Assembly (NCBI RefSeq): GCF_018771565.1
Contig: NZ_CP076326.1
Span: 248,001-312,000, forward strand
Source of the DNA: Thermoflexus hugenholtzii
Lineage (GTDB): Bacteria > Chloroflexota > Anaerolineae > Thermoflexales > Thermoflexaceae
Direction of reading: 5' to 3'
DNA length: 64,000 nt
The notes under the pieces were generated by a model. That model ran no database searches. It saw nothing but the letters and a program-made list of their open reading frames with translations, and was not told the DNA's origin. The translations under genes and the position numbers were made by a program. Numbering within the stretch: the stretch's first letter is position 1; each line of letters starts with the position of its first letter. Shown here in pieces: positions 20,286 through 60,806 of this stretch.

Positions 20286-20785
20286 GTCGAATGAATTCGA
20301 CCTCGGAGAGCCTTCGGCCGGCGGTCGGCCTGCACGCCGAATGAATTCGGCCTCCAGGGGCCTTTGGCCGGTGGTCGGCCTGCGCCGACCGGGAAGGTGT
20401 CTTGCGTCGGCGGAGGCCGACGCGTGGCGCGCAGCGCCCAAGAAGGCCGATTTCAATCGGCGTCAAAGGCCTTCGGCCGGCGGTCGGCCTGCACGCCGAA
20501 TGAATTCGGCCTCCAGGGGCCTTTGGCCGGTGGTCGGCCTGCGCCGACCGGGAAGGCGTCTTGCGTCGGCGGAGGCCGACGCGTGGCGCGCCAGCGCCTG
20601 AGAGGGCCGATTTCAATCGGCGTCAAAGGCCTTCGGCCGGCGGTCGGCCTGCACGCCGAATGAATTCGGCCTCCAGGGGCCTTCGGCCAACGGTCGGCCT
20701 GCGCCGACCGGGAAGGGGTTTTGCGTCGGCGGAGGCCGACGCCTGGCGCGGAGCGCCCGGAGAGGCCGATTTCAATCGGCGGAGG
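20286..20785 (+). repeat. compound hairpin repeat array I
   Basis: Fills most of the 741-base gap between the acylase and lepA. After a GTCGAAT-GA-ATTCGAC hairpin (20286-20301), a unit starting CCTTCGGCCG recurs at 20311, 20470 and 20630 (period 159-160 bp). Each unit is a string of short hairpins: GCCGAAT-GA-ATTCGGC, GTCGGC-CTGC-GCCGAC, GCGTCGGC-GGAG-GCCGACGC and GCCGATT-TC-AATCGGC. The same modules, in inverted orientation, form arrays II (44.1-44.7 kb) and III (45.9-46.4 kb). Stems in different copies differ by paired changes that keep base pairing. The array ends four bases before the lepA -35. Confidence 0.9.
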
Positions 20786-43983: not shown

Positions 43984-44109
43984 GGACGAAAGCCTCCTGC
44001 GGATCGAAGGATGGCCGGACCGCTCCGGACGGTCGAAGTTGCAGAACCCGTTCGCTCTGCGTTATCGTTATTTTCCGGCGACTGCCTGCCCGGCGGCGGG
44101 CTTTCGCGC

Positions 44110-44715
44110 CGATGGACATCGGCCTTCTTGCGGCGCTTGCGCGCCGGGCGTCGGCTTTCATGCCGATTGAAATCGGCCTTCTCGGGCGCTTCGCGCCGGG
44201 CGTCGGCCTTCGCCGACGCAAGGGATGTCTTTTCGGTCGGCGCAGGCCGACCGTTGGCCGAGGGCCTTGGCGCCGATTGAAATCGGCCTCCTGAGGCGCT
44301 TGTGTGCCAAGCGTCGGCCTTCGCCGACGCAAGGGATGTTTTTTCGGTCGGCGCAGGCCGACCGTTGGCCGAAGGCCTTGGCGCCGATTGAAATCGGCCT
44401 TCTAAGGCGCTTGCGCGCCAAGCGTCGGCCTTCGCCGACGCAAGGGATGTTTTTTCGGTCGGCGCAGGCCGACCGATGGCCGAGGCCTTCTCGGGCCGAA
44501 TTCATTCGGCCCGCCAGGCCGATCGTTGACCGAAGGCCCTTCGAGGCCGGATTCATCCGGCGTGCCCCGCGCCAAGCGTCGGCCTTCGCCGACGTGAAGA
44601 GTGTCTTTTCGGTCGGCGCAGGCCGACCGATGGCCGAAGGCCTTCTCGGGCCGAATTCATTCGGCCCGCCAGGCCGACCGTCGGCCGAAGGCCCTTGAAG
44701 GTCGAATTCATTCGA
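44110..44715 (-). repeat. compound hairpin repeat array II
   Basis: Fills the 843-base gap between aroQ and manC. A GCCGATT-GA-AATCGGC hairpin recurs at 44162, 44272 and 44383 (period 110-111 bp), each followed by GGCGC-loop-GCGCC, GCGTCGGC-CTTC-GCCGACGC and GGTCGGC-GCAG-GCCGACC hairpins; further on come GCCGAAT-TC-ATTCGGC, GCCGGAT-TC-ATCCGGC and GTCGAAT-TC-ATTCGAC. Read on the minus strand it is the same family as array I. The first 120 bases and last 110 bases of the gap show no feature. Confidence 0.9.
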
Positions 44716-44826
44716 CGCACAGGCTCTCGCGCCGATGAAGGATCCGGGCGGACAGCCGGAGTCGGCCGGCAGGCTCTATTCTCAGCCGGAATCTGCGAAT
44801 CGGCGAAATGCGAGGGGAGGTGGCGG

Positions 44827-45917: not shown

Positions 45918-46358
45918 GGCCGATGGAAATCGGCCTTCTGAGGCGCTTCGCGCCGGGCGTCGGCTTTCATGCCGATTGAAATCGGCCTCCTGAGGCGCTT
46001 GCGCGCCAAGCGTCGGCCTTCGCCGACGCAAGGGATGTCTTTTCGGTCGGCGCAGGCCGACCGTTGGCCGAAGGCCCTTCGAGGCCGGATTCATCCGGCG
46101 CGCCCCGCGCCGGGCGTCGGCCTTCGCCGACGCGAAGAATGACTTCCGGTCGGCGCAGGCCGACCGTTGGCCGAAGGCCCTTCGAGGCCGGATTCATCCG
46201 GCGTGCCCCGCGCCAAGCGTCGGCCTTCGCCGACGCGAAGAATGTCTTTCCGGTCGGCGCAGGCCGACCGGTGGCCGGAGGCCTTCTCGGGCCGAATTCA
46301 TTCGGCCTGCCAGGCCGACCGTCGGCCGAAGGCTCTTTGAGGTCGAATTCATTCGACG
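45918..46358 (-). repeat. compound hairpin repeat array III
   Basis: Fills the manC-topA gap. Same modules and orientation as array II: GCCGAT(G/T)-GA-AATCGGC, GCGTCGGC-CTTC-GCCGACGC, GGTCGGC-GCAG-GCCGACC, GCCGGAT-TC-ATCCGGC twice, GCCGAAT-TC-ATTCGGC and a final GTCGAAT-TC-ATTCGAC that ends 14 bases before ATG 46372 of topA. The ribosome-binding site of topA (GGGAGGGAG) directly follows the last hairpin. Confidence 0.9.
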
Positions 46359-55700: not shown

Positions 55701-55800
55701 GGTTCCCCTCCTGCGCAAAGGGGCTTTCACCCCCAGCTCTCCGTCTTCGAGATCGGGAAGGGTCACGCCGGAAGCCGCCCCAACCGCATTGGTTTTTCTG

Positions 55801-56632
55801 TAGGAGGGGCTCTCGCCCCGACTCCTGCCTTCAAGATCCCAAAGGCCACGGATGAAGCCACCTCCCCCAATCCCGAGCCTTCCGTCATCGGTGGCGCAAG
55901 GGTCGCGGCTGAAGCCGCTCTTACCAAAACGATATCAATCTTTTGGTAGGAGGGGCTTTAGCCCCAAACCTATCTCCAAGATCCCAAAGGCCACGGATGA
56001 AGGCCGCCCTCCACAATCCCGAACCTTCCGTCTTCGATGGCGCAAGGGTCGCGGCTAAAGCCGCTCCTACCCAAACACATCGTTCTTTTTGGTAGGAGGG
56101 GCTTTCGCCCCGAACTCCTGCCTTCAAGATCCCAAAGGCCACGGATGAAGGCCGCCCTCCACAATCCCGAACCTTCCGTCTTCGATGGCGCAAGGGTCGC
56201 GGCTAAAGCCGCTCCTACCCAAACACATCGTTCTTTTTGGTAGGAGGGGCTTTCGCCCCGAACTCCTGCCTTCAAGATCCCAAAGGCCACGGATGAAGGC
56301 CGCCCCCCACAATCCCGAACCTTCCGTCATCGGTGGCGCAAGGGTCACGGCTAAAGCCGCTCCTACCAAAACGACATCAATCTTTTGGTAGGAGGGGCTT
56401 CAGCCCCGAACCCCTGCCTTCAAGATCCCAAGGGCCACGGATGAAGCCGCCCCCACAATCCCGAACCTTCCGTCTTTGGCGGCGCAAGGGTCGCGGCTAA
56501 AGCCGCTCCTACCAAAACGACATCAATCTTTTGGTAGGAGGGGCTTTAGCCCCGAACCTGCCTTCAAGATCCCCAAGGCCACGGATGAAGCCGCCCCCAC
56601 AATCCCGAACCTTCCGTCTTCGATAACACAAG
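55801..56632 (-). repeat. six-unit REP/BIME array
   Basis: Occupies the 933-base gap between the MurI homologue and the RAYT gene. Units start at TAGGAGGGGC at 55801, 55947, 56093, 56241, 56389 and 56535 (period 146-148 bp). Each unit has a GGGGC-TTT-GCCCC-type hairpin at one end and a GCGGC-TAAA-GCCGC hairpin at the other, joined by about 90 conserved bases. Copies are 90 percent or more alike by eye. The region 55701-55800 holds a decayed half unit. Confidence 0.92.
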
Positions 56633-56633
56633 G

Positions 56634-57197
56634 TCATGGCTGAAGATGTTTCGATTGGAGAACATCATCCCTCATCCACCATCGCCATCCCAACATCTGC
56701 TCCGCGTAAACCAAATTCGCGCTGCTATAAGGATATTCGCAAGGATCCCCCACCAGCCCTCGCCGAACCGGGTTTTCCTCAATATAGCGTGCAATCTTCT
56801 CCACGCTTTCTTCCGCACGAAGCGCGTGATCATAGAAGGCAGATTGCCAGAAAGGACCTGACCGTCCCAGAAGTCTGTTCAGCGCCCTCCCCGTGCAGCC
56901 CTTCAATCTCCGCACCACGTCGCTGAGCCTGCTCTGCCCGGTCAGTATGCCCAGGAGATGAACGTGATCCGGCATTACGACGAATGACAGCAAAGCGAAT
57001 CCGCTCTCCCGCTGCCACTGTAACAGGTGTTCGATGAAATGTTGTGCCACCACGCCGATCAGCAGCGGACGGCGTTGATCAACGGTGAAGGTGACGAAGT
57101 AAACTCGGCCCGTTTCGGAAAAGCGTCCTTTTCGAAGGGCGCGATGCCCGGGCGTCTCTTGTCCATAACGTAGACGAGGAACCTCATCAGACGGCAT
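56634..57197 (-). CDS. REP-associated tyrosine transposase (RAYT)
   Basis: 187 residues of the IS200-like Y1 transposase family specialised for REP elements (TnpA_REP). GRVYFVTFTVDQRRPLL opens the catalytic domain; VMPDHVHLLGIL carries the HUH pair (residues 78 and 80); RYIEENPVRRGLV holds the nucleophile Tyr (138). All catalytic residues are present. The start is ATG 57197 (a TTG three bases upstream would add one residue). The gene is embedded between REP units on both sides, the standard genomic setting of a RAYT. Confidence 0.92.
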   Translation of the reverse strand: MPSDEVPRLRYGQETPGHRALRKGRFSETGRVYFVTFTVDQRRPLLIGVVAQHFIEHLLQWQRESGFALLSFVVMPDHVHLLGILTGQSRLSDVVRRLKGCTGRALNRLLGRSGPFWQSAFYDHALRAEESVEKIARYIEENPVRRGLVGDPCEYPYSSANLVYAEQMLGWRWWMRDDVLQSKHLQP

Positions 57198-57249
57198 CAA
57201 TGCGGCCTCGCTTAGGGAAGAATCCGTCTATCCACGGACCGAGTCTCCT

Positions 57250-60578: not shown

Positions 60579-60615
60579 CAGGCCACGCGCATGCGCAGCG
60601 CGCCATGGGAACGCC

Positions 60616-60779
60616 ACCTGCTCCCATCCCGACTATACGGTCGGCCCCGGACTTTCACCGGTGTCCTGCCTCGGCCGGAGGGCCTCGGCTCGCGGGCTGA
60701 GGAGGTGAGCGGATGCTCCCTCCATCACCGCCGGTCGGGAATTGGCCGCCCGAGGGCGGCCTCACCCTGCCCCGCAGGT
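60616..60779 (-). promoter_or_regulatory. FMN riboswitch (RFN element)
   Basis: On the minus strand the P1 arms ACCTGC and GCAGGT (60774-60779 with 60616-60621) enclose the conserved RFN core: GGGGCAGGGTG, ATTCCCGACCGGCGGT, GCCCGCGAGC, GACACCGGTGAAAGTCCGG and GGCCGACCGTATAGTCGGG, then ATGGGAG. All invariant blocks are recognisable. One side stem carries an added GGCCGCCC hairpin. Binding of FMN would favour the terminators downstream and stop synthesis of the transporter mRNA. Confidence 0.93.
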
Positions 60780-60806
60780 CGTGCCTATTCGGTTGGATCT
60801 GTGGAC

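Follow-up and report, generated by a model that had tools for sequence, protein, structure and literature searches.

The window analysed here, the whole stretch of 64,000 nucleotides, belongs to the genome of Thermoflexus (Chloroflexota), which is a single contig of 3.32 Mb. It includes three arrays of short palindromes, which proved real and agree with the preliminary description in both position (20286-20780, 44108-44716 and 45919-46357) and sequence. The arrays are built of modules, here given as letters, and include a small palindrome with the centre T-NN-A (h1) and a second hairpin with the centre C-CTNC-G (h2).

20286..20780, minus strand: array I, ABCDEFdE three times plus a terminal f, three units of ~160 bp, between divergent penicillin acylase (minus) and lepA (plus) genes
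20286..20301, minus strand: terminal module f, GTCGAATTCATTCGAC, a variant of the h1< palindrome
20336..20351, minus strand: module F, h1< palindrome GCCGAATTCATTCGGC; more copies at 20495-20510 and 20655-20670
20373..20390, minus strand: module D, h2< hairpin; more copies at 20532-20549 and 20691-20710
20404..20423, minus strand: module C, h2> hairpin; more copies at 20563-20582 and 20723-20742
20446..20461, minus strand: module A, h1> palindrome GCCGATTGAAATCGGC; more copies at 20606-20621 and 20765-20780
44108..44716, plus strand: array II, ABABCDEACDEABCDFdEPCDEFdEf, between divergent genes, that on the plus side being mannose-1-phosphate guanylyltransferase-like (by eye)
45919..46357, plus strand: array III, ABABCDEPCDEPCDEFdEf, directly 3' of the guanylyltransferase-like gene and ending 14 bp before the topA ORF

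Counting of hairpins with a perfect stem of at least 7 and a loop of 2-4 gave 13, 16, and 11 in arrays I, II and III, as compared with shuffle means of 0.37, 0.37, and 0.32, respectively (shuffle maximum 3). Elsewhere in the window, 118 bins of 500 bp contain on average 0.23 such hairpins, with a maximum of 2. The unit of 159-160 bp reported for array I was confirmed by spacings of 159 and 160 bp, and that of about 110 bp reported for arrays II and III by periods of 111 and 103 bp. As proposed, all arrays share the same modules: the 160-bp unit is ABCDEFdE, and the shorter units are made of incomplete series of those modules. Two-base GA or TC loops are present, but not always, as had been claimed; palindromes with such loops represent 2 of the 6 hairpin modules, and modules C and D have four-base loops (CTNC or GNAG). 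Arrays II and III are oriented opposite to array I; hence the 'GA' and 'TC' forms represent a single pair of modules seen from opposite strands, and the two loops mark the mirror-image ends (halves) of one inverted-pair unit. The varied stems exist as well, GCCGATT, GCCGAAT, GTCGAAT, and GCCGGAT having 124, 86, 26, and 4 copies, respectively, in the array loci analysed in this genome, but they form no continuum there and mostly fall into a few discrete module types.

A genome-wide search for the palindromes by BLAST with array III gave matches all over the chromosome, and 36 arrays of 128-1653 bp each, 23.9 kb in total, were parsed from selected chromosome stretches. The exact pattern GCCGANTGANTCGGC, which falls one base short of the palindromes, had 0 matches. 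The module order is A-B-C-D-E-F followed by a partial dE, repeated, and is often closed by the variant f; 23 of the 36 arrays start with A and 28 end with F or f. Consensus modules are A, GCCGATTGAAATCGGC; C, GCGTCGGC-CTNC-GCCGACGC; D, CGGTCGGC-GCAG-GCCGACCG; and F, GCCGAATTCATTCGGC. Modules A and F are complementary at 14 of 16 positions, and three single units, from this genome, its sister species G004 and the L160 genome, folded into long branched inverted repeats (z from -4.2 to -6.5). Thus, each unit consists of two ends in inverted orientation, each end with two hairpins, in the order h1> h2> (linker) h2< h1<. At L034:3520-3600 of this genome, a non-module stretch (GCTCGCAGTTGTCCTACAAAGGGGCC...TTGGGACACACCC) interrupts an array end just before the last f.

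The arrays are intergenic and fold strongly, their pairing is conserved, and three of them adjoin housekeeping genes, all of which would suit RNA elements (terminators, attenuators or mRNA stabilisers) that serve gene regulation, with the spread of the repeat being secondary. However, counted relative to genes, the 36 arrays are placed 19 co-directionally, 9 divergently and 5 convergently, with 3 uncallable (flanking gene strands were taken from codon scoring and are approximate), which is not a terminator-type bias, and a terminator or attenuator role was set aside given this context. Both orientations of the arrays occur (13 and 23), unit number differs between sister species, and an Rfam search left the arrays unmatched, which together make a regulatory RNA very unlikely. 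The sole Rfam match was an FMN riboswitch at 60612-60783 of the window, on the minus strand (67.8 bits). No published Thermoflexus repeats were found in a search limited to a library of open-access papers.

The genome has four Y1_Tnp matches, and the linked transposase sought was found as an intact IS200-type HUH transposase gene inside the largest array.

L049:13295-13729, minus strand: tnpA, a 144-aa ORF flanked on both sides by stretches of the largest array

TnpA matched the NCBIfam model for IS200/IS605 TnpA (NF033573) with 58.3 bits (cut-off 55), and its score of 25.4 bits against the RAYT model REP_Tyr_transpos is below the cut-off of 80. The alignment profile and an AF2 model, built on the SKYG36 relative of TnpA (pLDDT 88.7), both matched IS608, IS200-type and ISDra2 TnpA ahead of TnpAREP. 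The closest named relatives are from Thermoflexus, and phage records gave weak matches only (about 30%). H54, H56 and Y114 are conserved, DHLH (HUH) and WQ are present, and Y114, Q118, H121 and H122, which form the Y---Q--HH signature, are invariant across 31 sequences. Judged by these motifs, the linked enzyme would be a TnpAY1 of subclass 1.2. The dN/dS of tnpA is 0.04-0.16 where dS could be estimated, these values being rough because dS is near saturation.

Published members of subclass 1.2 are mostly from Cyanobacteria and Bacteroidetes, with a median length of 148 aa and a DH[IV]H motif (PMC6006769), and are described as lacking REPs and, in general, the terminal structures typical of IS200 (Quentin et al. 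2018, PMC6006769). The Thermoflexus enzyme is like them in the Y---Q--HH and WQ motifs, its 144 aa, the lack of added domains, low copy number and nearness to IS200 TnpA. It differs from them in that the genes studied here are palindrome-flanked and come mostly from Chloroflexota, along with other phyla, and in that the HUH motif is DHLH in this copy, not DH[IV]H.

A class-2 RAYT gene (YIEENP) is located in the window at 56634-57200 on the minus strand, beside a second palindrome array at 55800-56622 with a 148-bp unit, in which GTAGGAGGGGCTTTAGCCCC is paired with inverted GTAGGAGCGGCTTTAGCCGC (9 exact pattern matches, chance 0); together they represent a canonical GTAG-REP REPtron. Two further class-2 (Y---NP) Y1 matches are at genome positions 2865282-2865512 (L064) and 2846483-2846749 (L065). 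With both enzyme kinds in the genome, and h1 resembling short GTAG-REPs in many relatives, the RAYT of the window could be proposed to mobilise the compound arrays in place of the subclass-1.2 TnpA. This is extremely improbable, as the RAYT adjoins a GTAG-REP array of its own that differs from the compound ones, the latter flank the subclass-1.2 gene, and genomes G003 and G008 each have one Y1 match at E <= 1e-6, which is the subclass-1.2 gene.

There is one gene-bearing copy each in this genome, in the same-genus genome G003 and in the related genomes G008 and G051; in the last three, this single tnpA relative is located within arrays of the family found here or immediately adjoins them. The neighbour genes of this tnpA were not found at related loci (5-10 kb compared per locus). 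G001, G002, G004 and G006 have arrays and no tnpA was found in them, possibly an effect of MAG contigs breaking off at repeats. Hairpins of the h1/h2 types occur within 300 bp of tnpA in 52 of 54 relatives, which are genome contigs from several phyla with MAG taxonomy labels that may include misbinned contigs. Their density is 1.6-2.3 per kb within 300 bp and 0.03-0.06 per kb elsewhere in the same loci, a difference of 30-80 times for hairpin types that were defined on those very loci. The full order h1> h2> tnpA h2< h1< is seen in 21 of the 54 relatives (counted by hand from the output). In a second locus set, partly overlapping the first, the mean number of hairpins per locus was 4.8 for subclass 1.2, 0.6 for 1.1-type and 0.9 for class-2 genes. 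Two Bacteroidota plasmid copies of tnpA have no h1/h2-type hairpins. One of them, the subclass-1.2 locus of a Persicobacter plasmid (L232, Bacteroidota), has a symmetric pair of 20-nt palindromes of another sequence type, CGATGGGT...ACCCATCG, lying roughly 89 bp ahead of tnpA and 29 bp behind it.

Gene-less units, h1> h2> - short linker - h2< h1<, are present in about 40 scattered copies each in the L160 (Chloroflexi) and L171 (Ktedonobacterales) genomes, and the tandem copies of the L160 genome are mainly those adjoining tnpA. Where a gene-bearing copy shows the full order, tnpA stands between h2> and h2<, at the position of the linker in the gene-less unit. Hence, gene-less units appear to have arisen from the gene-bearing arrangement by internal deletion. 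A REP-like GT[AT]G tag is found 1-3 nt from the foot of h1 in 47 of 127 h1 copies at relatives, as compared with a background of 1.8%. Neither this tag nor GT[AG]G is present at Thermoflexus h1, which has NNAG instead.

Six array sites, with flanks of 92-98% identity, were compared with those of the sister species G004. All six are shared with this genome, and no insertion difference that would indicate recent transposition was found between these two closest genomes. G004 has one unit at four of the sites, including one ABCDEFdEf unit at that of array III, two units at one and a degenerate unit at one, as compared with arrays of 439-1512 bp in this genome; since G004 is a MAG, collapse of tandem copies could exaggerate this contrast. 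Among more distant genomes, G002, G003 and G005 lack both the element that precedes topA and the one that precedes lepA, and G001 lacks the former; the site in G001 is too diverged for an insertion target or target-site duplication to be read. Units of different arrays are about 81% identical, and 97% identity is reached by 59 of 537 pairs within arrays versus 3 of 13,659 between arrays. The sharing of sites and the confinement of near-identity mostly to within arrays indicate that the sites are old and the growth local, i.e. units multiply in place. A single recent expansion, which the preliminary description had named as grounds for refutation, was tested and rejected, given the ~81% identity between arrays and near-identical duplicates that are only local.

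Recent growth in place with no new sites, and the persistence of arrays where no tnpA was found, would also be expected if tnpA were a passenger, that is, an ordinary IS200-like insertion in or near inert hairpin repeats that spread by slippage and recombination alone. However, an association that recurs in 52 of 54 relatives from several phyla, in the order h1> h2> tnpA h2< h1<, and is weak or absent at 1.1-type and class-2 Y1 genes argues against this, and the scattered gene-less units of other genomes require some dispersal process. Hence, a passenger tnpA is unlikely.

The stems had been said to vary by compensatory changes. Pairing is indeed maintained by paired changes, but the argument is weaker inside the window alone than stated, because the variation there is largely the end-versus-end difference of one unit together with positional variants. 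Comparison between species, or between the scattered copies of another genome, gives far more paired changes than comparison within this genome. In 80 h2 hairpins, selected for their centre motif and their proximity to tnpA and blind to pairing, 64, 71, 70, and 70 pair at the four most variable positions, as compared with 35, 41, 33, and 43 when shuffled. At each of positions 1-6, pairing is seen in 64-72 of the 80 cells and involves several Watson-Crick types; the values are far above shuffles at positions 1, 3, 5 and 6. BLAST gave 20 units of one other genome, in which pairing holds for 95.5% of cells (31-46% in slid controls), 11 pairs have double changes versus 5.3 shuffled, and covariation is 0.141 versus 0.073 (0 of 500 shuffles). 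This covariation indicates that the folded single strand, and not the letters, is what is kept. Beside selection, correction of imperfect palindromes during replication could be a source of paired changes. Copying through the folded form had been suggested; with that form single-stranded, it fits the linked HUH transposase.

The hairpin clusters consist of a small, probably mobile DNA element in tandem. In full, the arrays are likely to represent a tandemly amplified, non-autonomous, REPIN/BIME-like element of ~128 bp, with a subclass-1.2 IS200-type HUH/Y1 TnpA as the best candidate for its cognate enzyme. This explanation brings together the observed unit architecture, tnpA linkage, covariation, differing unit numbers at fixed sites and conserved catalytic residues; mobilisation of the units by TnpA is suggested by the linkage. 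When the DNA is single-stranded, e.g. in the lagging-strand template, the unit ends would fold; TnpA would bind the folded hairpins, cut via its tyrosine and join strands. Copying would then pass through the folded form, with the enzyme selecting for pairing, and units, once seeded, may be amplified locally through slippage or recombination involving near-identical modules.

The palindromes had been thought to match no repeat family, but their arrangement is that of BIMEs/REPINs. REP/BIME/REPIN palindromes form inverted pairs with a linker, are dispersed between genes and often occur in consecutive tandem copies (PMC8266576). Similarly, the 36 arrays have inverted palindrome pairs with a linker in multiple intergenic copies, one Y1 HUH enzyme gene lies inside its own repeats, as in a REPtron, and many h1 copies of relatives have the GT[AT]G tag near the foot. 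The differences are that each end has a second hairpin (h2), that Thermoflexus copies lack the GTAG tag, that the arrays are composite and reach 1.65 kb, and that the enzyme is IS200-like (Y---Q--HH) and not a RAYT (Y---NP) as in a REPtron. The arrays were not assigned to RAYT-type REPs because neither the GT[AG]G tag, in this genome, nor a RAYT enzyme was found for them; most likely, they work like BIMEs/REPINs and belong to a subclass-1.2 TnpA. With IS200/IS605 elements (IS608, ISDra2) they share the HUH/Y1 fold and catalytic residues and hairpins on both sides of the gene. However, IS608 and ISDra2 have small subterminal hairpins in place of the inverted double hairpins at the ends here, and IS200/IS605 elements often have several near-identical gene-bearing copies, whereas here there is a single copy of the gene and most units are gene-less.

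On balance, though with less assurance, subclass 1.2 appears to supply the enzyme of another, widespread type of REPtron. In it, the gene-bearing h1>h2>-tnpA-h2<h1< would be the source of gene-less double-hairpin REPINs across several phyla, and those of Thermoflexus would have grown into composite arrays with a fixed grammar. The arrays would offer a substrate to a transposase subclass that had none, and activity could be tested with the assays used for TnpAREP (PMC8266576). They also bear on the origin of REP systems from insertion sequences, as h1 is short-REP-like, the enzyme IS200-like and the gene-less units deletion-derivative-like. CGTC-tagged REPs, which are short palindromes with CGTC near one end that form dimers and have no RAYT assigned (Di Nocera et al. 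2013, PMC3733652), are similar in their short palindromes with CGTC and in their dimers, a resemblance in form. The arrays were not assigned to that family, as the CGTC tag is unpaired there (PMC3733652) and lies inside the h2 stem here.
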